From positions 1 to 58,499 of IMG/VR virus record IMGVR_UViG_3300027777_000004: a DNA stretch of 58,499 nucleotides, one strand, 5' to 3'. The translations under genes and the position numbers were made by a program. This document shows, one piece after another, positions 20,047-48,372 of the stretch. The first letter of the stretch is position 1. The number at the start of each line of letters is the position of its first letter. The notes beneath the pieces were generated by a model. It did no database searches, had not been told where the DNA came from, and worked only from the letters and a program-made list of their open reading frames with translations. The stretch is from a virus.

Positions 20047-20955
20047 TCATTTGGCCCTGCGAATAGAGGGTGGCCCCTCTGGCATGTCCAACAAAGTTTG
20101 GTCGAGGTAGTGCTTCCAGACCAGCTTGGGATCGGAGTGCGAGAGGTAGTCGCTGGCTTGCCCCGGCGACTTGCGTTGCACATAGGTTGCACAGCTACGC
20201 CGCAGAAACTTCGACGAGCCGCTGAATTTATGCTCTGCCAGAAATCGCTGCCACATGACGAAGGCCCGCCGTCGCGGCACTGCCCATTTGAATAGCGTCC
20301 CATCCGGTGAGTGCTTGAATAGCAGCCCCACCTCTTCGCCCGTCTCCTCTGACACGGGGCGAATGGTCGTCTTGCCCGTCTTTTGCGCCGTGACTGCCAC
20401 GCAATTATTTCTAAAGTTCTTGATGGTTAGGGCGTGAACGTCCGCAAACCTCAACCCAGTATCGAAGGCCAAGCCGATCCACGCCGGGATGACCATCCTC
20501 CGGGTGACATGAGGCACCCGGAGGCTCACGGGTGTCTCGTCCCGTGCAGCCACCGCAATCATCCGCTCCAGCGTCGTCATGCTCCATGCCTCCACAGGGC
20601 GGGCCCTCACCTTGATCCGGTGTAGCCGCAGAGGGGGGCTCTCAGACCACTCGCGGTCAAAAGCCCACTTCCACAACGTCAGAATTTCTCTTCTGATGTT
20701 GTGTTTTGTGGCGGGAGTTAGCTGCATTTCTGCCAGGGCAGTGTTGACCGTCGTCGCGGACAGTTGACGAACTAGATGCAAACCGTATGCTGCGAACTTG
20801 CGGGCGGTTCTGCATAGATTTGCCCTATAGCCGCCGCTTGCTGCGTTCTCCGCAGAATAAGCGACCGCCAGCTCAGTGAGCGTCATGGAGGATGATGTGC
20901 CAGTGCCAAGGACGGGAGGAGCGAATTCTGCGCGGACAGAAGAGTGTGTGGACAT
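20047..20955 (-). CDS. Tyrosine recombinase (phage integrase)
   Basis: A 302-residue protein (278 if the internal ATG at 20886 is used; neither start has a clear SD). The catalytic set is visible: Arg169 in DTGLRFADV, Lys near 192/195 in TAQKTGKT, KxxR (Lys249-Arg252) replacing the commoner HxxR, His273 in YLSHSD, and nucleophile Tyr283 in KHYLD. The N-terminal 115 residues look like a helical core-binding domain. The gene faces the other way from its neighbours and its start is about 115 bases from a half-tRNA that is the likely attP. It should catalyse site-specific integration and, with a directionality factor not identified here, excision. Confidence 0.9.
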   Translation of the reverse strand: MSTHSSVRAEFAPPVLGTGTSSSMTLTELAVAYSAENAASGGYRANLCRTARKFAAYGLHLVRQLSATTVNTALAEMQLTPATKHNIRREILTLWKWAFDREWSESPPLRLHRIKVRARPVEAWSMTTLERMIAVAARDETPVSLRVPHVTRRMVIPAWIGLAFDTGLRFADVHALTIKNFRNNCVAVTAQKTGKTTIRPVSEETGEEVGLLFKHSPDGTLFKWAVPRRRAFVMWQRFLAEHKFSGSSKFLRRSCATYVQRKSPGQASDYLSHSDPKLVWKHYLDQTLLDMPEGPPSIRRAK

Positions 20956-21069
20956 AGCTTCGTCTTTCGAGGGGACTGACCCCTGCCAAAAAACCTTAGA
21001 CCCACCAAAGACAGGATGTTCCAGCGGAACACGCCCCCTTGGGGGGACGGTGGAACAGGGCGGTTTCCA

Positions 21070-21116
21070 TCAGCTTCCCAAGCTGGATGTCGAGGGTTCG
21101 AGTCCCTTCGCCCGCT
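21070..21116 (+). other. Probable attP: 3' half of tRNA-Gly(CCC)
   Basis: The sequence folds as tRNA positions 27-73: anticodon stem TCAGC/GCTGG around loop TTCCCAA (anticodon CCC), variable loop ATGTC, T arm GAGGG-TTCGAGT-CCCTT, and acceptor strand CGCCCGC plus T. The matching 5' half (a GCGGGCG strand and D arm) is absent upstream. A tRNA 3' end beside an integrase gene is the classic attP core that restores the host tRNA on integration. The exact core limits cannot be fixed without the host sequence. Confidence 0.85.
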
Positions 21117-21118
21117 TT

Positions 21119-21952
21119 TTGTTTCCATCGCGGGGAAATTTTATTTCCCTGACGGTAGAGGAGTCAAGCCTCTATCACACTTGGCCGGAACCCAGTTGCT
21201 CCGACCTAAAGTTACTGGACGAAAGTCCCGTTGCTTACTACGAGCGCAAGGTCGCACAGACCGCGCCGCCCCGCACTGGCGAGGCTCTGTCCTACGGGAC
21301 ACTTTTGCATTCGTGGGCCGAGATCGGTGACGAGGCATTTTGGGCGCGGGCTGTCATCTGCCCCAACCAGTACGCCACAAGCACTGGCCTGTGGGGCAAG
21401 GTTACCGATGCGTGGGCGAGAGAGTTGCCGCCCGATGCTCTGCCGCTCGCGCCCGCTGACGGGCACAAGCTCAGGGCCCAGACCCTCCAAGTCCTTGCCA
21501 ACCCCGCCGCCCGCAAGCTGCTGACAACGGCCATCGTCAAAGAGGCCAACGTCCGGTGGCGTTGGAACGGACATCTAGTACGGTGCCGGTTCGACGGGGC
21601 GACAGAGGAGTGCTGGTGGGACATCAAGACCACCCGCGACCAGAAGCCGTTGGAGTCTTTTTGGCAGAGCGTCAAGACGTTCCGCTACGACATGCAAGCG
21701 GCCATGTATGAGTCAGCCATGGTGGCATGTGGCTGGGACTACCACCCGCTTGTTTTCATAGCCACATCAACAACGTACCCGTACCACTGCTCTGTGGTGA
21801 CGCTGCCGCCCTCTGTGACTGCCAGAGGGAAGGCCCGCTGTCTGCGGCTCCTCGACGAGCTTGAGACGCGCATCGACTTCGACCACTGGTTGCCCAGCGA
21901 CTACGGGCAAATCCAAGAACTTCCCTGCCCCCGTTTCTTCAAGGAGAGCTAG
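21119..21952 (+). CDS. PD-(D/E)XK exonuclease-like protein (recombination)
   Basis: About 278 residues. The N-terminus (YHTWPEPSCSDLKLLDESP then YYERK and GEALSYGTLLHSW) matches phage RecB/exonuclease VIII-like nucleases that start with a 'SDL..L..SP..Y' segment. Likely active-site elements are LVRCRFDG and EECWWDIKTTRD, the D...(D)xK pattern. A QAAMYESAM segment resembles the QxxxY motif of RecB-like nucleases. The start is uncertain: no ATG lies near this N-terminus. TTG at 21119 is used here; ATT at 21143 after GGGGA would also fit; the frame is open back to an ATG at 20876, through attP. It probably resects DNA for annealing-type recombination together with the next genes. Confidence 0.75.
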   Translation: MFPSRGNFISLTVEESSLYHTWPEPSCSDLKLLDESPVAYYERKVAQTAPPRTGEALSYGTLLHSWAEIGDEAFWARAVICPNQYATSTGLWGKVTDAWARELPPDALPLAPADGHKLRAQTLQVLANPAARKLLTTAIVKEANVRWRWNGHLVRCRFDGATEECWWDIKTTRDQKPLESFWQSVKTFRYDMQAAMYESAMVACGWDYHPLVFIATSTTYPYHCSVVTLPPSVTARGKARCLRLLDELETRIDFDHWLPSDYGQIQELPCPRFFKES

Positions 21953-30868: not shown

Positions 30869-31095
30869 GCGGCGAGTTCCTCCTGCGGACGGCTGAGAGA
30901 TTCGGCGTCCCGGTGGTGCTGCTGATCCTGCTCCTTTGGTGGGCGCGCACTGATATTGTGCAGCCGCTTCTGAACGCCCATTTTGAAATGGTCGGCAAGA
31001 TAGTGGAGGGGCAGGAGACTCATACCAAGGGGCTGGATAGCCTAGGCCGCAAGCTGGATGAGCTTATCTCTGCCACCAAAAGCCTAAGCAGATGA
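30814..31095 (+). CDS. Single-span membrane protein, holin- or spanin-like
   Basis: A 93-residue protein with SD GGGAG. After a polar N-terminus there is one membrane segment (FGVPVVLLILLLWWA, about residues 30-45) and then an amphipathic helical tail (KIVEGQETHTKGLDSLGRKL) that looks like a coiled coil. This topology fits a holin of the single-span class or an inner spanin. It is ATGA-coupled to the sigma-like gene. Confidence 0.6.
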   Translation: MSSRTAEATAADDKSNPLGGEFLLRTAERFGVPVVLLILLLWWARTDIVQPLLNAHFEMVGKIVEGQETHTKGLDSLGRKLDELISATKSLSR

Positions 31096-31604
31096 CACGG
31101 CTCACCGCCGAACAGCAGCAGCTAGCAGAAGACGCAATCAGATATTGCGGGCCAGTGATAGCGCAATTCCTCAAGGTCAACGATGACCTAAAGAGAGCGG
31201 CCCGCAGGGTAGACCTAGCCAGCACTGCCATGTACGCGGTGTGCTTGGCGGCAACTACCTATGACGCAGAGAAGTCTAAGCCCTCTACGTATTTCAGTAT
31301 CGCCATTCGGCATGCACTGATACGGGCAGTGCTGCGGCAGCAGAAGCTCGACGGCAGATACATAGCAGTGGAGTCCCTGCTAGAGCCATCGCCCAACGTC
31401 CACCGCACACGGCAGGAGATGCGTGCGCTCAAGGCCCTCAAGAGTCTCTCGGCCTATGATAAGACGCTGCTCGAAGACCGGCTCATCGAAGCCGTTACCC
31501 TAGAACAACTGGGCCTAGAGCAACGACTTGATCCCCGCACCGTAGCCAAGAGGGTATCATCGGCCATCGACAAGCTACGCCGTGCGGAGGACAATCTCCC
31601 CTGA
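31092..31604 (+). CDS. RNA polymerase sigma-factor-like protein
   Basis: A 170-residue protein. Residues about 35-85 resemble sigma70 region 2: helical, with AARRVDLASTAMYAV, YDAEKSKPSTYFSIAIRHAL and IRAVLRQQK, matching the 'FDP..g..FstYa...Ir..i' core. Residues about 113-165 resemble region 4 with a helix-turn-helix: LSAYDKTLLEDRLIEAVTL, EQLGLEQRLDPRTVAKRV, then IDKLRR. Region 1.1 and 3 are absent, as in short ECF-like factors. It could redirect host RNA polymerase to late or middle phage promoters. It is last in the rightward unit and ends overlapping the leftward recombinase gene by 30 bases. Confidence 0.75.
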   Translation: MTRLTAEQQQLAEDAIRYCGPVIAQFLKVNDDLKRAARRVDLASTAMYAVCLAATTYDAEKSKPSTYFSIAIRHALIRAVLRQQKLDGRYIAVESLLEPSPNVHRTRQEMRALKALKSLSAYDKTLLEDRLIEAVTLEQLGLEQRLDPRTVAKRVSSAIDKLRRAEDNLP

Positions 31605-35462: not shown

Positions 35463-35743
35463 TCATCTTCTTTCTTGGTGACGTAGCTACGCCAGTTGTA
35501 GGAAATACCTCGGGCTCCACAGACTGTGACCTCTTTCTTCTTCACTAAATTCTTGACCATCTGAGCAATGAAGTTCAGGCTAGTCCAACCAAACGCCTTG
35601 GCTATCTGACGATAGGACGGCTGGACCCCCGTCTTATCTATCGACATGGCCACCATGACAAGCAGCTCATGCTCACGGGGCGTAAGCCCCTTGGGCGGGG
35701 CGGGCATTGCTGCCCTGCCCCGCCGCCCGGGTTTAGCTTTCAT
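35459..35743 (-). CDS. LexA-type winged-helix DNA-binding protein
   Basis: A 94-residue protein. After a basic N-terminus, LTPREHELLVMVAMSIDKTG, QPSYRQIAKAFGWTS, NFIAQMVKNLVKK matches the LexA N-terminal winged helix (LTxxQxxxLxxIxxxxxxxGxxPSxxEIAxxxG). No autocleavage protease domain follows. It could be a phage regulator controlling the leftward genes or lysogeny. Its gene is ATGA-linked to the next. Confidence 0.7.
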   Translation of the reverse strand: MKAKPGRRGRAAMPAPPKGLTPREHELLVMVAMSIDKTGVQPSYRQIAKAFGWTSLNFIAQMVKNLVKKKEVTVCGARGISYNWRSYVTKKEDE

Positions 35744-36141
35744 GCACCCGCCTTTGCCACCTGCGCCGTTTCATTGGCAGCAGCAGTCTTGGTGGGCATC
35801 CGCTTGTGGCAGACCTGCGACACGGCACCGCCGGTGCATTTAACACCCATACGCCGTGCGATGATCCGCCACTTGAGCCCTGTCCCCCGCATTTGCAGAG
35901 CGGCGAGGAGCATATCGTCAGTCCACTTGAGCTGACGATGGCGGCGAGTGCGGCGAGTGACAGTGACCGGCTTGTCGGGAGTCACCCGAATAACCTGCAC
36001 ACCGCCCCGACGCACAGTGCCAGCAGGCTTGTGTGCTACCGCTTTGGGCATTGCAGCAGACAGCTCGAACCCCTGCCGCAGCAGTCGGGTCATTGCCATC
36101 AACTCGGCGGTATCAATCTCTTTATAGATTACGAACTTCAT
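35740..36141 (-). CDS. Putative DNA-binding regulator (HTH/Myb-like)
   Basis: A 133-residue protein; ATG at 36141 with GAAAGGC as SD. The middle is basic (TRRTRRHRQLKWTDD), followed by MLLAALQMRGTGLKWRIIAR and RMGVKCTGGAVSQVCHKRM, which reads as a helix-turn-helix of the Myb/GcrA-like kind. It lies just before the LexA-like gene and after a G-rich element copy. Regulatory function is inferred. Confidence 0.6.
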   Translation of the reverse strand: MKFVIYKEIDTAELMAMTRLLRQGFELSAAMPKAVAHKPAGTVRRGGVQVIRVTPDKPVTVTRRTRRHRQLKWTDDMLLAALQMRGTGLKWRIIARRMGVKCTGGAVSQVCHKRMPTKTAAANETAQVAKAGA

Positions 36142-36184: not shown

Positions 36185-36231
36185 GTGTCGGACAACCCGA
36201 CACACTACCCCTCGCCCCCGCCCCTTCGGGG
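36185..36231 (-). promoter_or_regulatory. G-rich element copy A with following hairpin
   Basis: On the minus strand CCCCGAAGGGGCGGGGGCGAG continues into GGGG and then a GTGTCGG/CCGACAC hairpin (36185..36203). It lies 44 bases before the ATG at 36141. One of six copies; this is the most diverged core (GCGGGGGCGAGGGGTAGT). No T-run follows the hairpin. Confidence 0.6.
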
Positions 36232-36245
36232 CAGGGAATGTCGAA

Positions 36246-37241
36246 TCAACTCACGAACAAAGTGTCTGCCATCGACGCAAGGGTGGGGAGCTGAACGTAA
36301 ACGGCCGTGATCTGCTGACAGTGAACCGCCCAGAACGGCGGGCATGTGGACACACTCATCAAAGTGTCGCCGCGTCGCAGATACAAGGCCAGCGTCGTGT
36401 CATACTGCCCCATCAAGTCACCGAAGTCGATTGGCTGGGCGAAAGCCCATGTGGCAAACTGACAGCGCAGTTGATGGAGTCGAGCATAGGCAGTGCGAAT
36501 GCTATACATATGCTCATCCAGACAAGCCGGTCGGTCGGGTAGCTGCCGCACTGTGTTCAACAGTAACGACCATGAGATGCTATCGACGTACTCTACGTCG
36601 CGTTTGCCGCCACGGCTGGTGTATGTCTTCATGAAGGGCTGGGCATTCTTGCTGTTACCCCTCTGGTAAATCACTGTGCTGGGCAAGTACGCCGCCAGTT
36701 TCTTGAGCATGCACTGTATCTCAGACGGCTTAGGCTTTACGATCACGCCGCATCTTGCAGCTCTCTGAATGTCCTTGAAGGCAATGCGATAGTGCGTGGA
36801 ACTTTCACCGTCGCATGTAGTTAGCCCACTGAGATATTGGGGGTCGGTGCCGCTGTGGTTCGTGCGAGCCCCAAGCGTTTTGCTGTGCCGAAGGTCAATG
36901 TCATCGATGCCCTCATACTTTAGGCTCGAATGCGGACTACGGGGACAGCCCAGCGCAGCAGTGACATAGCACAACTGATTGAGGGCATGCCCGTAATCGA
37001 AGAGCTGATACCGCAGGTAGGCGGCGTTTGCTAGGGCCCAATAAAGCCGACGCATATGCACCGACAGGCCAGAGTCAATAGCGCGGGCATTCACGCAGTG
37101 ACGGGCCAGCATGTCATGCAAGAGAGTCCCGGGGAAATGACCATCAATGCTGCCCTCGGGAGCGGCACAACGCAACTGCGCATATGCGTAGTCAGCGTTG
37201 GCCTTCTCGAAGGGGGTGAGGTCGAAACAATTACCAGCCAT
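36246..37241 (-). CDS. Hypothetical protein downstream of the MoxR/VWA module
   Basis: A 331-residue mostly helical protein with many His, Tyr and Cys residues (NARAIDSGLSVHMRRLYWAL, QLFDYGHALNQLCYVTAALG). No known motif. It follows the VWA-like gene in the same leftward operon, so it may act with that module. It ends just before element A. Confidence 0.5.
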   Translation of the reverse strand: MAGNCFDLTPFEKANADYAYAQLRCAAPEGSIDGHFPGTLLHDMLARHCVNARAIDSGLSVHMRRLYWALANAAYLRYQLFDYGHALNQLCYVTAALGCPRSPHSSLKYEGIDDIDLRHSKTLGARTNHSGTDPQYLSGLTTCDGESSTHYRIAFKDIQRAARCGVIVKPKPSEIQCMLKKLAAYLPSTVIYQRGNSKNAQPFMKTYTSRGGKRDVEYVDSISWSLLLNTVRQLPDRPACLDEHMYSIRTAYARLHQLRCQFATWAFAQPIDFGDLMGQYDTTLALYLRRGDTLMSVSTCPPFWAVHCQQITAVYVQLPTLASMADTLFVS

Positions 37242-37243
37242 AT

Positions 37244-37318
37244 CTACTTACTCCCGTTGATAAAAAGGTGGAACACAATTACGGCACAGACAAGGGCGAA
37301 CATGGAGTCAGCCTGCAT
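37244..37318 (-). CDS. Tiny single-span membrane peptide
   Basis: A 24-codon frame (MQADSMFALVCAVIVFHLFI...) whose ATG has GGAGG five bases before it, inside the end of the VWA gene. The hydrophobic stretch SMFALVCAVIVFHLFI would span a membrane once. Its stop is 2 bases before the next gene. Small size limits confidence. Confidence 0.4.
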   Translation of the reverse strand: MQADSMFALVCAVIVFHLFINGSK

Positions 37319-38726
37319 AGCCGCCTCCATTCCGGTACAGATGGACAACCTTGGCCCATGGTGGTGTGGGATAGCCCTTGCATTCCTCAGTAAGTGCGAT
37401 GATGACCCTCGCCCTCGGCTTGGCACACCATCCCGTTTCACCATCGGTCAGCACGACAATCGCATCGGGCCGATCCTCTTTGTCCACCGTCGTTACTGCC
37501 AGACCCATGTCAGTACCGCCGCCGCCCTGCCAGACAAAGTTCTTGAGGCTTTGAACCTCCTTGCGGGCCTGCATTCTGGCATCGAAGCAGGTTACTTTCG
37601 GACGCTGCACCTGCCGTAATCCTGCGGCTAGTGCAACAAGTGCCCGCTGAATGTTGTCACCGCTGGACATGCTGCCAGAAGTGTCAACGATGATCGAACA
37701 CTGAGGGGATACCCTTGTCACGCCCCGTTTACGGGGGCCATCGGGGTCTTGCCGACGAGACAGCTTCTTATAGGTCAGCTCATCCGTTCCGATGGGGCTG
37801 GCAACAGACCTCGCAGCAAACGTCCTGAGTTGCTGAAAGGGGTCAGGCTGGGGACGAAGACGGGCAGCGATAGCTGCCGCCAACGTACCTGCCCCTCTGC
37901 CGGGAGTAGATTGAATGGCCTTCTCAATCTCCTCCAACTGCTGCACCTGACGAGCAATGTCGCCCATCTTGCACGGCTTCTCCCATGGTTTGGGCACACC
38001 GTCAGACGCACTGCCCTCCATGTCGGGGTCATTGTTCGGCCCCTTGGAATCGTTGTCTGGCTGGTCATCACCACTGCCAGTGCCGCCGCCAGACTTCTTC
38101 TTCTTTTGGGGCCCAGGCTGGCCATCATCTCCCGTACCATCAGACCCACCATCGTCGCCGTCGTCTCCGTCCTCCCCCTCTTGCTCATCCTCTGCCTCGG
38201 GGGCCTTCTTCTTGCGGAAGTAGGGGGCAAGCAGCCCGACATAGGCTTCCGTTGTCAAGCCGGAACGCACCATTGGGATGTCCGCAAACGGGCACTCGAA
38301 GTCTGGCAGATGGCTAGACAGTTGGAGTGCATCGTCAGGGAGTGTGGTGTCACGGGCCAGCAGTTGATTAACTGCTAGGTCTGCGGCAATGTTCCACAGT
38401 TTGCACTGGTCTTCAGTGGGCATGCCACCCATCCAATCCTCTCGCCGCTTGGCATGAGAGAGGGCCAGATGGTAGACCTCATGAATCATGATCGCAGCCA
38501 AGTCAGCTTTGGAGCGGGTGCTACACCGCTCTTCGTTGACATAGAGCCTGCCCACCTTGTCCACGGCCATGACCGGGACTTCGGCAGTTATGATTACGGG
38601 CATACCAACAAGCGTCCGGTAGAAGTAGGGGCAGATTGCCCCTGCCAACTTGCGGGCAGCATAGAGCTTCTTACGAATGTCACTGATGGGCTTTCGCCCC
38701 TTGGGAATCGGAAGGATCGAAGTCAT
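37308..38726 (-). CDS. VWA-domain / metallopeptidase-like partner of the MoxR ATPase
   Basis: A 472-residue protein; ATG at 38726 with GGAGG upstream (a TTG at 38735 is in frame). The N-terminal part has AAIMIHEVYHLALSH, an HExxH zinc-peptidase motif (about residues 82-86). The middle (about 165-265) is a low-complexity Asp/Gly/Pro/Lys linker. The C-terminal VWA-like domain has IVDTSGSMSS, a MIDAS DxSxS metal site near residue 345, and a GGGTDMG segment. This order (metallopeptidase-like domain then VWA-like domain) matches the DUF2201-type proteins encoded beside MoxR ATPases. Confidence 0.8.
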   Translation of the reverse strand: MTSILPIPKGRKPISDIRKKLYAARKLAGAICPYFYRTLVGMPVIITAEVPVMAVDKVGRLYVNEERCSTRSKADLAAIMIHEVYHLALSHAKRREDWMGGMPTEDQCKLWNIAADLAVNQLLARDTTLPDDALQLSSHLPDFECPFADIPMVRSGLTTEAYVGLLAPYFRKKKAPEAEDEQEGEDGDDGDDGGSDGTGDDGQPGPQKKKKSGGGTGSGDDQPDNDSKGPNNDPDMEGSASDGVPKPWEKPCKMGDIARQVQQLEEIEKAIQSTPGRGAGTLAAAIAARLRPQPDPFQQLRTFAARSVASPIGTDELTYKKLSRRQDPDGPRKRGVTRVSPQCSIIVDTSGSMSSGDNIQRALVALAAGLRQVQRPKVTCFDARMQARKEVQSLKNFVWQGGGGTDMGLAVTTVDKEDRPDAIVVLTDGETGWCAKPRARVIIALTEECKGYPTPPWAKVVHLYRNGGGYAG

Positions 38727-38731
38727 GGGTA

Positions 38732-39826
38732 TCAACCCTCCAGTTGGGAAACGATGCGGGAGTAACGGGTAAGCAGGGACATGGGGATCTCGTACTGCGG
38801 GAACAGTTCCGTGATCTGTGCCAGTGACGGCACGGACAGCTCGGCCAAGTCGTTCTCGGCCATGGTCACAAGAATTTCCGACAGCTTGTTCAGCCGCTTT
38901 TCGGTGGGGTTCAGTGCTGCTGCACTGAGCAGTGCAGTAGGCAGGCAGGCAAGAACGTCGCCCCGGTCGCCGTCCATTTCGATGACGACCTTGCCGTCGA
39001 GAGCCTCATCGGGATCGTACAAGTCGATAGCATCGACATAGCGGCCCAGCTCCACGGCACAACCTTCACCGACGATGCCTGTCGCCAGCTCCATTCGGAC
39101 ATCGGCATCAGCACCCACCTTGTCGGCACCTGCCAGACAGAGGGACAGGTTGTACCAAGCACGAAGCGACTGAAAACCGAAGGCGTTTTCGTCGATTGTC
39201 TTGGCCTTGCGAAGCCCGACGTTGGCCTTGACCAGATTGCTGGTGAGCCGCATCCACTTGGGCACATAGGCACTGAAGTCACCGACAATCGGCAGGTTTG
39301 TAGGGGGCGAGAACACGCCGCCCTTCTGCATGCCGTCGTACCAAGAGTCAAACGGCAGTGCCCATTGGTGGTGGTAGCACCGATTGAGCAGAGCGGGCTC
39401 AAGCGGAGAGCCATTGGGACAAAGCTCGGGAGGGTTAGCAGCACCAGCCCGAATGGTAGTGGGATGGAACTCAAGCTTGCCAATGCGGCCTTCGTTGAGC
39501 GCACTGAGGAGCAATGGCTTCATCGTCGGGGAGGACGTTGTGATTTCGTCGATCATGAGGAACCAGTTGGGGTTCGTCAGTGCGAGGATGAACTCCATCG
39601 GCAGCATGTCAACGATCCGCTTCAGCAAGTCGGGCACCGGCAGACCACTCAAGTCATCAGCACAGTGCTGGCTGGGCACGAAGCAGAAGAAGTTCATTCC
39701 CAGAGCCCGGGCAATAGCCATGCCCATGGCCGTCTTCCCCTCGCCAACACCGCCCCAAGCGATGGAAGCCACACCGCACTGGAGTGCGATGAAGTAGGAG
39801 ATGTTCAAACAGGTCAACGTATTCAT
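38732..39826 (-). CDS. MoxR-type AAA+ ATPase
   Basis: A 364-residue protein. Walker A is GGVGEGKT (about residues 25-32), Walker B WFLMIDEIT (about 88-96), sensor 1 AGAANPPE (about 128-134), and the LLNRC segment supplies an arginine-finger-like Arg. The C-terminal 150 residues are helical and less conserved. With the VWA-like partner directly downstream it forms a MoxR/VWA pair, a chaperone-like remodelling system that inserts metals or activates target proteins in bacteria. The phage target is unknown. Upstream lie a terminator-like hairpin and a G-rich element. Confidence 0.85.
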   Translation of the reverse strand: MNTLTCLNISYFIALQCGVASIAWGGVGEGKTAMGMAIARALGMNFFCFVPSQHCADDLSGLPVPDLLKRIVDMLPMEFILALTNPNWFLMIDEITTSSPTMKPLLLSALNEGRIGKLEFHPTTIRAGAANPPELCPNGSPLEPALLNRCYHHQWALPFDSWYDGMQKGGVFSPPTNLPIVGDFSAYVPKWMRLTSNLVKANVGLRKAKTIDENAFGFQSLRAWYNLSLCLAGADKVGADADVRMELATGIVGEGCAVELGRYVDAIDLYDPDEALDGKVVIEMDGDRGDVLACLPTALLSAAALNPTEKRLNKLSEILVTMAENDLAELSVPSLAQITELFPQYEIPMSLLTRYSRIVSQLEG

Positions 39827-39852
39827 CAGTCTGTACCTTTGTTCATGCGTAA

Positions 39853-39893
39853 GTGAAAAAGAACGTCGGGGCTCGGAACACCCGAACCCCGAC
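39853..39893 (-). terminator. Terminator-like hairpin in the MoxR leader
   Basis: On the minus strand GTCGGGGTTCGG and CCGAGCCCCGAC form a 12-bp stem (one G-U) with a 5-base loop, followed by GTTCTTTTTC. It sits between the G-rich element and the MoxR start, so it could terminate the upstream transcript or act as an attenuator for moxR. Confidence 0.7.
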
Positions 39894-39895
39894 AG

Positions 39896-39927
39896 AAAAC
39901 CCCTCGCCCCCACCCCTTCGGGGTTAG
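39896..39927 (-). promoter_or_regulatory. G-rich element copy B
   Basis: Minus strand reads CTAACCCCGAAGGGGTGGGG followed by GCGAGGGGTTTT. The same sequence from CTAACCCC to CGAGGG is repeated at copies C and D. It lies just after the stop of the 39930 gene and before the moxR leader hairpin. Confidence 0.7.
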
Positions 39928-39929
39928 GG

Positions 39930-40811
39930 CTATTTCGCCATCTTGATACCTTCAGCACCGATAGCAGCCCGAGTGCTAGCGATAGCACTCTTGCACCGGC
40001 TGAATGGGCGACCGAAGAACGAAGCCATGGTCTTGAGCTGTTGCTCTGACTCCATCAGCTCCTTGATGCGACGAGACTGCCCGTTCTTGCGAGGGGCAGC
40101 ACCAGTGGCATACAGAGCCTTGATCTCGGCCTGCATCTCATCGCAGTGTTGAGTGAGACGCTCCTCGAAGAACTCACTGACCTCTTTGACAAGGTCGAGA
40201 TTCATCTCGGGGCTAAACACAACACGACTCAGCTTCGGGCCATGCTTGGACAGCAGGCCACCGACTGTGATATAGGGGTCCATGTTGTCCCTAGTCACGA
40301 AGTAGACGCCGCCACCATCACGCAACAGCACGCCCTTCATCTTCTTGATGAGCAGCACTATCGCCATGGTCACCTTGTTAGCATCGACCACCGACAGTGC
40401 GGCGGTGAACTCAGCTTGTGCTGCTTCACGCAGTGCCGTTTGGTCGCCAACTAGCAGGGTGTCTACGCTGGGGTCCACTTCCAGCAGCTTCACGCCGCCA
40501 GCCTTGGTAACGCCAAGGCTGAACAGAAACGGGTAGAGGTTCTTCTTCAGCCCCTTCTGAAACTGCCGAACCTCGACGCCGATAGCGTCCCGGTCGGACT
40601 GAAGCGGGCGAATGTCCACCTTGCAGTCATCGGTCAAGCCAAGAGCTTGAGCGACAGTGCGAGCGGCCTCTCGAATGCAGTGCATTTGATCGACCTTGGG
40701 AACCATGTGGCCGAAGCCGATGGCATCGAACGCAGCCTGCAAAAACTGCCGCTGCATTGCGGTCGCCTTCCAGAAAAGGATGGCACCTTCACTACTGACC
40801 TTACGAATCAC
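39930..40811 (-). CDS. Hypothetical protein upstream of the MoxR/VWA module
   Basis: A 293-residue protein; GTG at 40811 is chosen because AAGGAG lies 6 bases before it (a TTG start 51 bases upstream is also in frame). Mixed alpha/beta; segments include KVTMAIVLLIKKMKGVLLRD and GGGVYFVTRDN, then a helical C-terminus with a Lys/Arg-rich patch. Proteins of about 300 residues often precede MoxR/VWA pairs in phages (DUF6744-like, from memory, not verified). It may be part of the module. Confidence 0.6.
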   Translation of the reverse strand: MIRKVSSEGAILFWKATAMQRQFLQAAFDAIGFGHMVPKVDQMHCIREAARTVAQALGLTDDCKVDIRPLQSDRDAIGVEVRQFQKGLKKNLYPFLFSLGVTKAGGVKLLEVDPSVDTLLVGDQTALREAAQAEFTAALSVVDANKVTMAIVLLIKKMKGVLLRDGGGVYFVTRDNMDPYITVGGLLSKHGPKLSRVVFSPEMNLDLVKEVSEFFEERLTQHCDEMQAEIKALYATGAAPRKNGQSRRIKELMESEQQLKTMASFFGRPFSRCKSAIASTRAAIGAEGIKMAK

Positions 40812-40871
40812 GGGAATCTCCTTACGTCTTTGGGTGTGAAACTCATTGTCTGGGTCTGTCAAGAGCTACAA

Positions 40872-40922
40872 AACGAAGAGGCCCACTGGCTACGCTCATG
40901 CGCAACCAGTGGGCCTTCGTTT
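40872..40922 (-). terminator. Long hairpin, probable terminator
   Basis: GGCCCACTGG and CCAGTGGGCC form a 10-bp stem with a 16-base loop, extended by AACGAA/TTCGTT outside a two-base bulge. On the minus strand it ends CTTCGTTTTG. It lies 24 bases after the acidic gene's stop and should terminate or buffer that transcript; it is nearly symmetrical and might act in both directions. Confidence 0.7.
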
Positions 40923-40945
40923 ACGGTGGTTTCCTGAGTGCTGGA

Positions 40946-41344
40946 CTAGCTCTTCTTGAGCTTGGCCAGCATCTCATCGGCGTTGTCGCGGATCACTTCG
41001 ATGAGGGTGCAGAGAGCATAAGTGAAGTCACCCATGGGATCGGCTTCCTCCTCGTCGTCCTCATCGTCATCGCCATCGTCTTCGTCCTCCTCCTCCTCTT
41101 CGTCGGCCTCATCCTCGACCACCGGGATGGGCCTTCCCCGAAGACTGCCGAGCGTCTTCACCGGGGCGACTTCCTCCTCCTCTTCCTCCTCTTCCTCTTC
41201 CTCTTCCTCCTCTTCCTCGACGGCAACCGGGGCAGCCGGTGCCGAACGACCATTGCGAGGGGCAGCTACCGCCGCCGTCGCCTTGGCACCGCCGAGTTTG
41301 CGGAGATTTTCCAGAGCTTTGCTGCTAACAATCGACTTTGCCAT
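40946..41344 (-). CDS. Poly-Glu/Asp acidic protein
   Basis: A 132-residue protein starting at MAKSIVSSKALENLRKLGG with SD TAGGAG; the upstream extension is rejected. After an Ala/Pro-rich linker come 16-17 consecutive Glu residues (near 43-59) and a second long Glu/Asp block (about 79-100), then a short helical C-terminus. Such proteins can mimic DNA or bind basic proteins. It has its own leader with a strong terminator-like hairpin and a G-rich element. Confidence 0.75.
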   Translation of the reverse strand: MAKSIVSSKALENLRKLGGAKATAAVAAPRNGRSAPAAPVAVEEEEEEEEEEEEEEEEVAPVKTLGSLRGRPIPVVEDEADEEEEEDEDDGDDDEDDEEEADPMGDFTYALCTLIEVIRDNADEMLAKLKKS

Positions 41345-41420
41345 CGAACAGACTCCTACTAACAGGGTGAAAAGAACAACTCCGTCGAGTTCCGACATTG
41401 GAACCCCCTTGTCAAGATCA

Positions 41421-41464
41421 AGAACAAAAAACACCGGGCCGGTCGGAAACGATCCGACCGGCCC
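41421..41464 (-). terminator. Terminator-like hairpin in the acidic-gene leader
   Basis: On the minus strand GGGCCGGTCGG and CCGACCGGCCC form a perfect 11-bp stem with a 7-base loop, followed by GGTGTTTTTTGTTCTT. It stands between G-rich element C and the acidic gene's ATG, as in the moxR leader. Confidence 0.75.
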
Positions 41465-41470
41465 ATCGAA

Positions 41471-41498
41471 CCCCTCGCCCCCACCCCTTCGGGGTTAG
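41471..41498 (-). promoter_or_regulatory. G-rich element copy C
   Basis: Minus strand CTAACCCCGAAGGGGTGGGG continues GCGAGGGGTTCG. Identical to copies B and D over the first 25 bases. It follows the stop of the 41536 gene and precedes the leader hairpin of the acidic gene. Confidence 0.7.
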
Positions 41499-41535
41499 TC
41501 AAGGGAATTACTTGTTGTGATGAGTAGCCAAGTAG

Positions 41536-41916
41536 CTACTCGGGCCACCCCGTAATCTCACTAACCGGAATGGTGTTAGAGCTAAACACCATGCCCTGCC
41601 GGTTGATGCCAGCCGCCGAGTGCATGGAGTCAGAGAGAATCTTGACCCAGCGAAGGAACAGTTGCTCCTCACTCCACGACAGACTGCCACTGTTGATAGC
41701 CTTGCCCAGCTCATTGCTCACAGTGGTGACTGCCGCCAACAGCTCCGGTGCAGCCTTGATGAGATGCTGCACTTGACCGGGGTTCGCCCCCTCTTTCGTC
41801 CACTCATTGTTCTGCAACCAGCACACCAAGTGGCCATTCGTATCGTCACTCAAGGCGACCATATACTCATGCCAATCACCCAAAGACCAAGTCGTCTGCA
41901 TTGTTACATTGCCCAT
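41536..41916 (-). CDS. Hypothetical protein (LIKAAPELLAAV motif)
   Basis: A 126-residue protein with SD AGGAG 8 bases before ATG. HLIKAAPELLAAVTTVSNEL matches the 'AAPELL' type also present in the 34546 gene. The rest has Trp/Tyr-rich beta-type segments (WSLGDWHEYMVALSDDTNG). Function unknown. Confidence 0.6.
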   Translation of the reverse strand: MGNVTMQTTWSLGDWHEYMVALSDDTNGHLVCWLQNNEWTKEGANPGQVQHLIKAAPELLAAVTTVSNELGKAINSGSLSWSEEQLFLRWVKILSDSMHSAAGINRQGMVFSSNTIPVSEITGWPE

Positions 41917-41927
41917 CTGAATAACTC

Positions 41928-42158
41928 CTATCGGCTACGGCGATAACAGCGCAGGGCTTTGCGCTCATCGCCACGGGGGATAATGACAGCAAAGCCCGCT
42001 GTTTTGTGACCATACTCCATCAGCACCATCAATGGAGGCTCGGCACTGCACCCCTTGCAGACCATTGGCCTGCCGGAAGTGCTAAGAAACACTACCCGAT
42101 CCTTGGGCAGCTTGCGATGACAGTGCATACAAAGCTGCGACATAGGGCCAATCTCCAT
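41928..42158 (-). CDS. Small zinc-ribbon protein
   Basis: A 76-residue protein. CMHC and CKGC pairs lie about 22 residues apart, then a basic C-terminus (ERKALRCYRRSR). Start may be 42158, 1 base after the previous stop, or ATG 42143, which has GGAG nearer. Single zinc ribbons like this are common in phage early regions. Confidence 0.6.
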   Translation of the reverse strand: MEIGPMSQLCMHCHRKLPKDRVVFLSTSGRPMVCKGCSAEPPLMVLMEYGHKTAGFAVIIPRGDERKALRCYRRSR

Positions 42159-42159
42159 G

Positions 42160-42408
42160 CTAAAAGGGGAGATCCGACATAATGGCCAGCAGATGATCCC
42201 CGGGCACTGTCAGCTTGAACTTGGCGATAGCCGCCAGCAGCTCATAGTTGGTGCCATAGCCCTCGCCAGTTTGACTGCCCACCAAGTCGGTGACCTTTGG
42301 GTAGCCGTTCTTCCTAGGCGTATGCCGTTGCAGGAAATACTCTTGCAAAGGCTTGTCATACCCATATGCGTATGTGACTAGGCCCACTTGCAGGTGATAG
42401 CGGCTCAT
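42160..42408 (-). CDS. Hypothetical small protein
   Basis: An 82-residue protein; ATG overlaps the previous stop as ATGA. Tyr-rich start (MSRYHLQVGLVTYAYGYDK), a GSQTGEGYGTNYELLAAI segment and a hydrophobic end. Function unknown. Confidence 0.55.
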   Translation of the reverse strand: MSRYHLQVGLVTYAYGYDKPLQEYFLQRHTPRKNGYPKVTDLVGSQTGEGYGTNYELLAAIAKFKLTVPGDHLLAIMSDLPF

Positions 42409-42665
42409 ACCCCATCCCTTTCGTCCCAAGAGGGGAACACGACGGGGCCAGGGCAAAGGCCAGTGGACAGAGCTTCCAGCATGGCGGCGTAATTCGTGAG
42501 TTCTGTGGCCAAACGGCTGGCGTTGAGCTGCCAAGCGTCAGGCCCACAAGTGTCTTGGCAGACTGCGTCACCACAAAGCTCTTGATGCCGCCGCAGGATG
42601 GAATCGCGGTGCTGACTGAGCCGCTGGTGAATGAGATCAGAGAGCCCCTGTTCGGAAGGTGTCAT
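42405..42665 (-). CDS. Hypothetical small protein, first leftward gene
   Basis: An 86-residue helical protein with a Cys-containing segment (CGDAVCQDTCGPDAW). It is the first gene of the leftward unit, just after G-rich element D. No clear SD. Function unknown. Confidence 0.5.
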   Translation of the reverse strand: MTPSEQGLSDLIHQRLSQHRDSILRRHQELCGDAVCQDTCGPDAWQLNASRLATELTNYAAMLEALSTGLCPGPVVFPSWDERDGV

Positions 42666-42721
42666 GTTATGCCCATGAGTAGTGAGATACGGGAACCGAC
42701 CGACGCCGGAACCACCGGAGT

Positions 42722-42767
42722 GTTTTCCCCGGCGAAAACTCCCTCGCCCCCACCCCTTCGGGGTTAG
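42722..42767 (-). promoter_or_regulatory. G-rich element copy D with hairpin
   Basis: Minus strand CTAACCCCGAAGGGGTGGGG continues GCGAGGGAGTTTTC, then a GTTTTC/GAAAAC hairpin around GCCGGG. It precedes the first leftward gene. Confidence 0.7.
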
Positions 42768-42995
42768 CCAAGTATCTAGCTAGTAGTGAAGGTATCTATG
42801 ACTAGGTGTATAGGGGCATAGAACAAGCCCTAAGTCACGGCCCGCGAACCAATTATCCCGCGCGACCTGCCCATAGTCCTTATGCCCATACCCAAGTGGG
42901 TACACATGCTGCCCCGACCCCGCATGGGTATGCCTCAAGTAGCTTGAGACTAGGGCTTATCGCTAATCCCATGCGTACTTGAACAAGAGCAAGTG
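42768..42995. promoter_or_regulatory. Divergent control region with nested inverted repeats
   Basis: There is no gene between 42666 and 43053. Visible inverted repeats are AAGCCCTA (42825..42832) with TAGGGCTT (42951..42958); TACCCA with TGGGTA (42889..42902); CGCATGGG (42921..42928) with CCCATGCG (42968..42975); and CTCAAG with CTTGAG (42934..42948). G-rich elements D and E bracket it, facing outward. It could hold operators, the main early promoters or a replication origin. No repeated iterons are seen. Confidence 0.55.
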
Positions 42996-43013
42996 GTGGG
43001 GGCGAGGGGTTTT
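42996..43013 (+). promoter_or_regulatory. G-rich element copy E
   Basis: GTGGGGGCGAGGGGTTTT, 41 bases before the ATG at 43054, first gene of the rightward unit. The leading CCCCGAAGGGG part of the leftward copies is absent here. Confidence 0.7.
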
Positions 43014-43053
43014 GTGAGGGACGACCGATACCACAACACCCAAGAGGACAACG

Positions 43054-43257
43054 ATGAAAGCTTCCAAATTCAGCCTACTGCACCAAAAGAATTGGGACGT
43101 ATTCAAGCTGAATTTCAGCACACTGTGGGCCTTCAACACCACAGTCGAAGGATGGTACGTCCAAGCCTACAACCGCCACAGAGTCTATGAGGGCGACTTG
43201 TATGGCCCGTTTGAATCAAAGGCCGCTGCAATCTTCTGGCTTGTAGGCCAGAAGTGA
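43054..43257 (+). CDS. Hypothetical small protein, first rightward gene
   Basis: A 67-residue protein with SD AGAGGA. Aromatic-rich (NWDVFKLNFSTLWAFNTTVE, GWYVQAYNRHRVYEG), compact alpha/beta look. It stands directly downstream of element E. Function unknown. Confidence 0.6.
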   Translation: MKASKFSLLHQKNWDVFKLNFSTLWAFNTTVEGWYVQAYNRHRVYEGDLYGPFESKAAAIFWLVGQK

Positions 43258-43268
43258 CCGCACAATGT

Positions 43269-43374
43269 AGCCCCAAAGGCGTTAGCTGGAAGCCTATGGC
43301 CATAGTCTTCTAACCCATAGCCTTACGTGGTACGGCTCATTAGGGCCGGGTAGGTTCGATTCCTACTGGGGTTT
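43269..43374 (+). ncRNA. tRNA-like element
   Basis: A perfect T arm is present (GTAGG-TTCGATT-CCTAC, 43350..43366) with a 7-bp acceptor AGCCCCA (43269..43275)/TGGGGTT (43367..43373) and a D-arm-like AGGC/GCCT hairpin. Between them TATGG/CCATA encloses a 15-base loop, not the normal 7, and AGCC/GGCT forms an extra arm like a long variable arm. It may be a decayed or unusual tRNA; I assign no amino acid. Confidence 0.4.
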
Positions 43375-43494
43375 CTCTCAAAAGCTATCTGCTTCCCATA
43401 CTCCCGGTAGACAAGGCCACTATGGGCAAGCAGACAAGCCTAAGACAATGACGAAAATCCCCTATCTATATAGGCAATGAAATAATCTTTTGTA

Positions 43495-43536
43495 GTGGGG
43501 GCGAGGGGTTTTTTAGACCGACGACGATGTCCGTCG
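43495..43536 (+). promoter_or_regulatory. G-rich element copy F with hairpin
   Basis: GTGGGGGCGAGGGGTTTT (43495..43512) followed by CGACG/CGTCG (43522..43536), 38 bases before the ATG at 43574. AT-rich sequence (TATATAGGCAATGAAATAAT) lies just upstream of the element, unlike at the other copies. Confidence 0.7.
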
Positions 43537-43573
43537 CCGGATGATCGATGGGTTTTCTTGAAAGGGTTTTACG

Positions 43574-43975
43574 ATGGCGAAAAAAGTATCCGCGAAGTCT
43601 GTGGAAATGGTCACAGTTCCCCGTGAGGAGTATGACCGTCTCACGGCCGGAAAGGCGACCGGCGGAACGGCGAGCGCGGCCGATGGGACATTCTCTGAGC
43701 CTAAGCCGGATGAAGACTACAACCAGTATGAGCGATGCCGAGTTTTGATCGGTGGCGGCATTGCCCGATGGACTGTCAGCAATGGCGGATGGGTACACCT
43801 CCAGATCGACTTCGTCCCACAAAAGGGCCGGGGAGCGCGAGCCGGATTCGGTGGGTATTTCGGACGCTGGAGGGACCGCTACATGAAGTATTTCCGCTCG
43901 ACCTTGTTCACAGATGACCTTGACGCTTGTCGGCTGAATGGTGCAATTGAAGCACCAACGGCGAAAAAGAAATAG
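43574..43975 (+). CDS. Hypothetical protein with its own element and terminator
   Basis: A 133-residue protein with SD AAAGGG. The N-terminal 45 residues are Lys/Ala/Thr-rich, the middle is beta-like (RCRVLIGGGIARWTVSNGGW) and the C-terminus is basic (PTAKKK). It has G-rich element F upstream and a strong intrinsic terminator downstream, so it forms a single-gene unit and may be made in quantity. Function unknown. Confidence 0.65.
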   Translation: MAKKVSAKSVEMVTVPREEYDRLTAGKATGGTASAADGTFSEPKPDEDYNQYERCRVLIGGGIARWTVSNGGWVHLQIDFVPQKGRGARAGFGGYFGRWRDRYMKYFRSTLFTDDLDACRLNGAIEAPTAKKK

Positions 43976-46172: not shown

Positions 46173-46589
46173 ATGCCACGACCCACTAGCTTCAAGACGT
46201 TGCAGGAATACGTATGGCAGAAGTTGCCACGGCGTCGGACGATGGTGGGCAAGGAAGCTGTATTTGACGCTGTATCTGTGGCTGTTCAAGAATGGCCCAG
46301 CCAGAAGTTTGAGGCGTTCGCGGATAGCGAACAGGGTGAGGCTTCTGGTGAAGAGACTGCTGCGCTCAAAGAGCTAGAGGGCAATATCAAGCGGCAGATG
46401 GACTTGGTCTACGGCGACCGCAAGTTCGGTTTCGTCTGGGTCATAGCCCTCCAGTTCATCCTCCCGATCATCATTCGTCTCATCTACGATTGGTGGAAAA
46501 AGCGGAAGGAGAACAGTGACCTCCTATCGTCATGGCAATCCAAGCTAGTGGGCGACGACTCTAACCCTCCTTCGGTGGACAATGGCTGA
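46173..46589 (+). CDS. Hypothetical membrane protein
   Basis: A 138-residue protein with one strong membrane segment near residues 88-105 (FVWVIALQFILPIIIRLIYD) flanked by basic residues (WWKKRKEN), after an amphipathic N-terminal half. It precedes the 46582 gene with an 8-base overlap. Function unknown. Confidence 0.55.
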   Translation: MPRPTSFKTLQEYVWQKLPRRRTMVGKEAVFDAVSVAVQEWPSQKFEAFADSEQGEASGEETAALKELEGNIKRQMDLVYGDRKFGFVWVIALQFILPIIIRLIYDWWKKRKENSDLLSSWQSKLVGDDSNPPSVDNG

Positions 46590-48372
46590 ACCAGACAATG
46601 CCCAGAGGGCTGGCCAAGTATTGACGGACTTGGTCAGACGCCCCGGCGAGAGCCTCGGGTCATACTTGGTGCGGGCTCAGTCCATGACCAAGCCCCAGTA
46701 CCAGCGTCGGGCACCCGATGACCGTACTGCACTGGCCAAGATGACAGGGGATATGACCACTGGCATCAGCGACAATGAGCTTGAAGATTGGTACATGACT
46801 CTGGATGAGAAGACGATCCCCGAGCATGAGCAGTTCAAGGAGAATGTCGCCCGCACCCTAGGCGAGCAGGTCTTTACCATTCCCCCCGTAGACGAATCTG
46901 GCGAGGGAGATGGTTATGTGCCAGCCAACTTCGACCAATTCTTTATGCGAACGATTCTTCCGCAGATAGAGGCCGATTACGGCACTGCTGTCGATGCCCC
47001 GCAAGTGCAAGAGCATATTATGGCCCGACTCATGGGGGAGCCGCACGACTTCCAAGACGAGAACATCAAGAAATACACCACTATGGTGCTGGACAACCTC
47101 AAAGAGGGTCAGTCCATCGATCCGTTCCCGGCTATGAGCCAAGAAGAGGCGGACGACGCCTACGCCAAGTACGGAACGAAGGCCCGCTTCTACATTGGCC
47201 AAGAGAATAGGGACAACTTTGCCCGCAAGAAAGCCTACGGGCTACTGCAAACCTTCGCAGATGGCGAACATGCCCCACCTCTCCAAGGGCTACCCTCTGC
47301 AATAGCGGGCGCGGCGGGGCAGATGTATACGAATGTCGCTGATGTCTTCGCCCCGCGAGACCTTTTTGACCCGCAGCCGGAATTTGTCTCGAACGACGGC
47401 TCGAAGGATGGATACGAGAATGCCCGCGCAGCTACCGATGCCCTCGGCGGGCCGCTCGGGAGGATCAGACAGGCCAACAAGTTCTACGAAAGGGCCACCG
47501 AAGACCCCGAATCTGTACGCGATCCCGTCACTGGGGCCAATTATGCAGACCAATCCAACCTAGGCATGGTTGGAATGGGCAACCATGGGGCAAAGTCGGA
47601 CGGCTACTACCAGTACGCCACCAATGAGCTGAAGAATCTGTTCGACAACACCAAGTTCACAGGTGGGCTAGACCCACTGATGGGATTTACCCACCAGAGC
47701 AACCAGATACAGCCCCCAGAAGTGATGAGTGAACTGTCGCAATATGAGCGCAATAGCAACAGGACGACTCCCATCGTCCCGGGCGGTCGCTATGTCTCTG
47801 AAACTGACAATAAAGACACCAGCCCCGCCGAAGAAGCCGCAGATTTGTTCAAAGGCTACAAGGATCACACGGCAGATGCGTTTAATCGGGGGTATAGGGA
47901 GCGAACGGGCATGAACCCGACCCAATTCCAGAGCAGCATGGGTAATATCCTGCGAGAAACCCTCACAGACCCCGCGACACTTGCTGGAACGGCCCTTTCG
48001 GCAGGGTTTGGTGCCCTGTTTGGTGGCGTGAAGGGGGCGGCAACGCCTGTTACCCTAGGTCTGGGCAGGGAATTACTAGAAGAAGGCGGCTTTACGGGGG
48101 CTTTAGAGTCCCTTTTGACCGGCCCGAGCTACTTTACAGAGCCTCTAGAAGGGGCTGGATATAGCCCTTTTGACCCCCAGAACAAGGCTTTAGAGGCCAT
48201 CCAGCAGTCCCGAGAACAGGCCGATGCTAGTGCTAAAGTCGCTGCGGCTCTGATGCGACAGCAGCGCAGCCCCATAGGTCAGTCACTCCTGCCCGAAGAG
48301 CAGCCAGCACTGCCCCGCCGCAGGCCCTCTATGAACCAGATGCCGCCCAAGTCCAGCCTACGGGATTTGTAG
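46582..48372 (+). CDS. Virion-block protein, unknown
   Basis: A 596-residue protein with a polar, Asp/Gln-rich first half and a Gly/Ala-rich, weakly hydrophobic region near 465-500 (TLAGTALSAGFGALFGGVKG) that could be membrane-active, then a Pro/Arg-rich end. It comes just before the scaffold and capsid genes. It might be an ejection or minor head protein; no domain recognised. Confidence 0.55.
   Translation: MAEPDNAQRAGQVLTDLVRRPGESLGSYLVRAQSMTKPQYQRRAPDDRTALAKMTGDMTTGISDNELEDWYMTLDEKTIPEHEQFKENVARTLGEQVFTIPPVDESGEGDGYVPANFDQFFMRTILPQIEADYGTAVDAPQVQEHIMARLMGEPHDFQDENIKKYTTMVLDNLKEGQSIDPFPAMSQEEADDAYAKYGTKARFYIGQENRDNFARKKAYGLLQTFADGEHAPPLQGLPSAIAGAAGQMYTNVADVFAPRDLFDPQPEFVSNDGSKDGYENARAATDALGGPLGRIRQANKFYERATEDPESVRDPVTGANYADQSNLGMVGMGNHGAKSDGYYQYATNELKNLFDNTKFTGGLDPLMGFTHQSNQIQPPEVMSELSQYERNSNRTTPIVPGGRYVSETDNKDTSPAEEAADLFKGYKDHTADAFNRGYRERTGMNPTQFQSSMGNILRETLTDPATLAGTALSAGFGALFGGVKGAATPVTLGLGRELLEEGGFTGALESLLTGPSYFTEPLEGAGYSPFDPQNKALEAIQQSREQADASAKVAAALMRQQRSPIGQSLLPEEQPALPRRRPSMNQMPPKSSLRDL

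Follow-up and report, generated by a model that had tools for sequence, protein, structure and literature searches.

A directional G-rich element ahead of presumed early genes in a phage genome, with a core that differs in concert from that of a relative

Lambda-type nut sites are phage-specific. The nutR site is made up of boxA, a spacer and boxB (PMC3526286), and the put sites of HK022 are cis-acting stem-loop elements located downstream of the early promoters of both directions (PMC9378689). Cluster A mycobacteriophages have stoperators, short asymmetric sites that are oriented with transcription, lie at promoters and in intergenic spaces, and have a motif that varies among relatives (PMC9283540, PMC6550527). 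The SAS/ESAS of cluster K mycobacteriophages are oriented asymmetric repeats before a subset of non-structural genes, half of which have an inverted repeat upstream that differs among subclusters (PMC3203893). Furthermore, the PeSLs of T4-like phages are promoter-terminator cassettes in intergenic spaces (via PMC4503421), and conAn of Gram-positive conjugative plasmids is an antitermination system with terminators inside operons (PMC8955417). The element described below was compared feature by feature with nut, put, stoperators and SAS/ESAS, and in outline with PeSLs and conAn. Each of the former four departs from it in at least one defining feature, and membership is claimed in none of them.

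The stretch of DNA analyzed here (the window) is the 58,499-nucleotide IMG/VR record IMGVR_UViG_3300027777_000004, which is a complete phage genome as judged from a 99-nt direct repeat at both ends. The phage is probably temperate, and it encodes tyrosine-integrase-like and serine-recombinase-like genes, a LexA-like DNA-binding domain, an ECF-type sigma factor (31092–31604; TIGR02937, 46.6 bits with a cut-off of 42.9) and, in the early operon, a MoxR-like ATPase (phrog_1297) paired with a DUF2201 metallopeptidase/VWA protein (37308–39826). The sigma factor is approximately 61% conserved in a distant relative (G002). ARAGORN placed a tRNA-Gly (ccc) at 21042–21117, within the exonuclease gene (20876–21952) adjoining the integrase; it was not found by Rfam and may be a false call. 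When 20 kb of the window was compared to GenBank phages by megablast there was no match, and tblastn with several proteins returned nothing from these phages except a weak match to a Microcystis phage portal protein and generic helicases. With the major head protein as query, a scan recovered 16 loci in IMG/VR, and the same early region was seen in one of them alone, G001 (also L119; IMGVR_UViG_3300032303_001488, 53,428 bases). G001 shows synteny with the window, and the majority of the genes tested are common to both, typically with 50–90% amino-acid identity; in the other relatives (70–72% head-protein identity) the MoxR/VWA early region was undetectable. Alignments of MoxR and of the 44485-gene again gave G001 only and no GTDB genome, and single-protein scans with MoxR and with the protein encoded at 46582–48372 gave no relatives.

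The initial annotation had reported six copies of a G-rich element, and a search of the window with the 18-mer GTGGGGGCGAGGGGTTTT returned exactly these six at 0–3 mismatches, with no site at up to three mismatches elsewhere in the genome; 0.09 sites were expected by chance, this being the average over shuffles, which never reached six. Four copies lie on the minus strand: A (GCGGGGGCGAGGGGTAGT, 36204–36221, three mismatches), B (39896–39913, exact), C (41467–41484, two mismatches) and D (42736–42753, two mismatches, within the leftward operon leader). The plus strand carries E (42996–43013, within the leader sequence of the rightward unit) and F (43495–43512), both exact. Between D and E lies a divergent intergenic region (42765–42992) which, from sequence and gene map, presumably holds the early promoters of both directions. 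As had been stated, each copy points with the gene it precedes: all six are non-coding and oriented with the next gene, at core-to-start-codon distances of 40, 61, 62, 69, 70 and 122 nt (sorted; next same-direction gene), in a genome that is 8.7% non-coding by our gene list (19% in the 31.6–44.5 kb region). The cores are 93% alike within the window, the terminal TTTT being retained in B, E and F only, and among complex 11-mers, those that recur most often in the genome are words from the core and the hairpin. A longer form ascribed to B, C and D is indeed shared there, but it is not special to these three, as A also has CCCCGAAGGGG; this sequence is thus present in all four leftward copies and absent from E and F. 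A longer 19-mer and a hairpin-plus-core pattern were found in no other IMG/VR contig, the latter pattern occurred in none of the GTDB genomes, GenBank phages and plasmids gave matches to the element at chance level only, and Rfam had no match at the element. Chi-like recombination sites were ruled out since every copy is intergenic. Also rejected were a trans RNA (there is no further complementary site in the window genome) and a GTG-initiated leader peptide, which is in frame with the gene at B only.

A scan of the genome and its relatives, which the initial annotation had proposed, gave, beyond the six intergenic window sites, a set of elements in G001 that have a different core and occupy the positions orthologous to B–F (leftward B', C' and D'; rightward E' and F'); copy A has no counterpart at its place there. 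The G001 core, GTGCGGTGGGTTG, is alike in all five copies (87% likeness), and orthologous pairs from the two genomes match at only 8–9 of 14 positions. In cross-searches the window core was absent from G001 and the G001 core absent from the window. The leftward hairpin ACCCCGAAGGGGT is identical in both genomes (13/13 nt in B', C' and D') and is followed by AGTGCGGTGGGTTG in G001 vs GGGGGCGAGGGGTTTT in the window. All copies have thus changed in parallel, which is what sites recognized by a single evolving factor would do, and this suggests a sequence-specific regulator that changed along with all its binding sites. The most plausible explanation for the replacement in concert of five dispersed copies next to an unchanged hairpin is a trans-acting reader of altered specificity; from two genomes, G001 being the single relative with the element, we infer that such a change probably took place. 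The ECF-type sigma factor and the LexA-like protein were rejected as the cause of the switch, their DNA-recognition segments being conserved between the window and G001. The earlier description of a directional, phage-specific regulatory element before early genes stands, and G001 lends it further weight; the concerted core switch and the downstream hairpins and terminators described below had been missed. With two syntenic phages carrying two versions of the element at the same places and the flanking hairpin kept, the pair of site and factor can be sought by genomics, and phages escaping the control of a relative must change the regulator and all sites together. In G002–G005 neither core is present, except for one single-mismatch match in G005. 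At positions 14–70 of G002 (L127), an F-like TATAGACA is followed by G-runs (GGGGGTCTGGTGGGGGGTGACGGGGTGTGTGTGTTG) and resembles F and F'; it lies where the contig ends and may be a third version of the element.

In predicted folds, the leftward copies are arranged as hairpin 1, core and hairpin 2. Hairpin 1 (ACCCC-GAA-GGGGT in B, 39912–39924) is identical in G001 at B, C (41483–41495) and D (42752–42764), all on the minus strand, and in A (GCCCC-GAA-GGGGC, 36220–36232, minus strand) its pairing is preserved through a double change, a compensatory G-C replacing A-T. It is absent from E, F, E' and F'. In B it is no more stable than shuffles because the C-run can also pair with a distal GGGG; a conserved RNA switch, in which pairing of AACCCC with the proximal and with the distal GGGG would be mutually exclusive, is not supported, as this arrangement is found in B and C and not in G001. 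Hairpin 2 lies a few bases past the core in 10 of the 11 copies of both genomes, with loops of 5–6 nt and unrelated stem sequences. On the minus strand, B (39864–39894, directly after the core and ahead of the MoxR-like ATPase gene) and C (41435–41465) have a GC-rich hairpin followed by a U-tract, i.e. an intrinsic terminator, which begins 1–2 nt past the core and ranks with the strongest in the genome. At C, pairing of the stem survives in G001 through two double changes, and C' is likewise an intrinsic terminator. The U-tract is found at B and C only and is short in B'; the hairpins of A (GTGTCGG-GTTGT-CCGACAC, 36185–36203) and D (42714–42733), also on the minus strand, are without it. The plus-strand hairpin of F (CCGaCGACG-ATGTC-CGTCGcCGG, 43518–43540) has a z of −2.2 as an isolated stretch and is unremarkable in a wider fold. 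Ranked together against the two genomes, hairpin 2 gave P = 5e-10, a value to which the terminator copies contribute most; hairpin 2 is weak and not significant at E, and F and A are weak to insignificant when a wider context is folded. Directly after three of the six cores comes a hairpin that ranks, by strength, in the top seven terminator-like hairpins of the genome (P = 0.004 for random intergenic placement), a count that includes the hairpin of A, which lacks a proper U-tract. At B, no promoter of its own is visible for the MoxR gene after the terminator, so that its expression would require read-through unless a promoter escaped notice. A promoter-like (GTAGCT)CTTGACA was observed upstream of several genes (40863–40869, 41416, 25262 and 44596), in some cases right after terminators and at the same places in G001; an ordinary −10 box is absent.

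We tentatively read the element as an RNA signal of early leaders, with a logic similar to that of nut, that would control transcription past the adjoining hairpin or terminator, and we give this somewhat less than an even chance. The six copies would be cis-acting leader signals of early operons, each with a sequence-specific linear core of approximately 14–18 nt, a small hairpin before it in the leftward copies and a second hairpin after it. The core would be bound in the nascent RNA by a phage protein, alone or with host elongation factors, and the bound factor would determine if RNA polymerase continues past the neighbouring hairpin or terminator, by attenuation or antitermination. Recognition in trans, action on RNA and an effect on termination are thereby presumed, and the leaders are presumably early, as judged from gene order. 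The element is a single block with no partner at fixed spacing and lies in leaders or before terminators, so that a post-initiation signal fits better than a promoter. Recognition may be of RNA or of DNA: the conservation of hairpin 1 and the repeated occurrence of a hairpin downstream point to RNA, while the asymmetry, the orientation and a possible SANT/Myb-like protein gene after A would favour a DNA site, and sites bound as DNA would be expected to diverge in concert just as well. Against the RNA reading, C precedes a TTGACA promoter-like site and may thus merely end a transcription unit.

Like lambda-type nut, the element would be a phage-specific signal in early-operon leaders, with copies in the transcribed direction near terminators and a linear element combined with a hairpin. 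In contrast to nut, its core is G-rich and not boxA-like, the loops of hairpin 2 vary between copies where boxB has a constant loop, hairpin 1 has a triloop and does not occur at E and F, four copies lie in one operon, and an N protein was not identified: a search of the small ORFs of the early region gave no N-like arginine-rich peptide or other antiterminator, an absence that is no proof. HK022 put resembles it in consisting of stem-loop elements that act in cis and are placed after the early promoters (here presumed) of both directions, but put is approximately 70 nt long, has two structured stem-loops and acts protein-free, whereas a conserved linear core dominates here, and the two are set apart by this anatomy. 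Unlike conAn, a single element at the operon start, the present element occurs in several copies. If it is an RNA signal, nut/put-type control would extend to a phage group far from the known ones. It is possible, though on balance doubtful, that hairpin, G-rich linear core and terminator or hairpin together form a new class of early-transcription signal with a putative phage-encoded reader, its specificity switched along with the sites between relatives.

The element might instead be an asymmetric DNA site of a stoperator-like phage repressor or regulator, near the early promoters (D, E and F) and intergenic (A, B and C), that halts transcription in one direction; we consider this rather unlikely. 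Under it, the core switch would be a switch of immunity specificity and the system an independent stoperator-like one. Shared with stoperators (PMC9283540, PMC6550527) are a short asymmetric site, the orientation with transcription, places at promoters (presumed here) and in intergenic spaces, and a motif that diverges between relatives; the integrase-like genes of the phage are also in keeping with it. Directly downstream of A lies a 133-aa candidate regulator gene (35740–36141, minus strand) whose product resembles a SANT/Myb-like helix-turn-helix protein in a motif recognized by eye, and the presumed recognition helix differs between the window and G001. However, this product has no Pfam match and no usable model, and the G001 copy of the gene has no site in front. 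Structure predictions were too poor for it (AF2) and for the product of the other candidate factor gene, directly downstream of F (43574–43975, plus strand; 133 aa, with an RG-rich stretch), the pLDDT values of the two being 48 and 34, and no reliable fold was predicted for the product of the gene after F. Stoperators are bound by a two-domain monomeric repressor, and a homologous repressor was not recognized here. Furthermore, there are six sites in the window and five in G001, compared to 20–30 per cluster A genome, their sequence is unrelated to that of stoperators, and they are tied to hairpins and terminators, to which a DNA site gives no role; nor does it account for hairpin 1 staying identical while the core changes.

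We regard as improbable a post-transcriptional mark, acting in processing, stabilization or translational control through a phage or host RNA-binding protein. Every copy does lie in a 5' leader or intercistronic space ahead of a start codon, with hairpins flanking the core on one or both sides, and the start-associated sequences of cluster K (PMC3203893) offer a precedent, being likewise oriented asymmetric repeats ahead of a subset of genes, some with an upstream inverted repeat. SAS are tied to the translation start, whereas the core, 40–122 nt from the start codon, is too distant for a ribosome-binding site, and in reverse of SAS/ESAS the hairpin stays here while the core changes. The association with terminators is left unexplained.

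Promoters or promoter-terminator cassettes with a start in or at the core, served by a host sigma or the phage ECF-like sigma or built like PeSLs, are quite improbable. The phage has its own ECF-type sigma factor, T4-like phages have mobile cassettes of this kind, the PeSLs (via PMC4503421), and TATATAG lies a short way upstream of both F and F'. A second conserved block at a fixed distance is nevertheless absent in both genomes, and no promoter block accompanies the core as in PeSLs. The terminators of B and C leave only 1–2 nt after the core, and the recognition segment of sigma region 4 is unchanged in G001 despite the changed core. As no single-subunit RNA polymerase was found among the proteins scanned either, the earlier hint at a promoter class was not borne out.

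A G-quadruplex in the RNA or the non-template strand had also been put forward, and the window copies score 1.5–2.1 in G4Hunter; E and F, however, hold two G-tracts of three or more, the G001 copies hold one or two and score lower at the leftward places, and the switch preserves the identity between copies rather than the G-tracts, so that the potential is not conserved and the idea is very improbable. Chance, low complexity or a functionless mobile repeat has hardly any likelihood: the bare 14-mer GTGGGGGCGAGGGG occurs in about 100 unrelated viral contigs, matches which look like chance, but such an origin is already contradicted by the conserved orthologous places with their concerted sequence change, and clustering, orientation and intergenic placement speak against it as well.

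In addition, a tRNA-like sequence between E and F (43270–43375) contains a GGTTCGATTCC motif and CCCCA/TGGGGT ends; it is unreported by ARAGORN and Rfam, is absent from G001 and is possibly a decayed tRNA gene. In the unrelated viral contig L031 (IMGVR_UViG_2619618892_000005), repeated intergenic hairpins of the form CGGGGCGAG...CCCTCGCCCC were seen at 981–1022, 1440–1476, 1961–1991 and 2954–2988, representing another dispersed family of phage intergenic hairpins.
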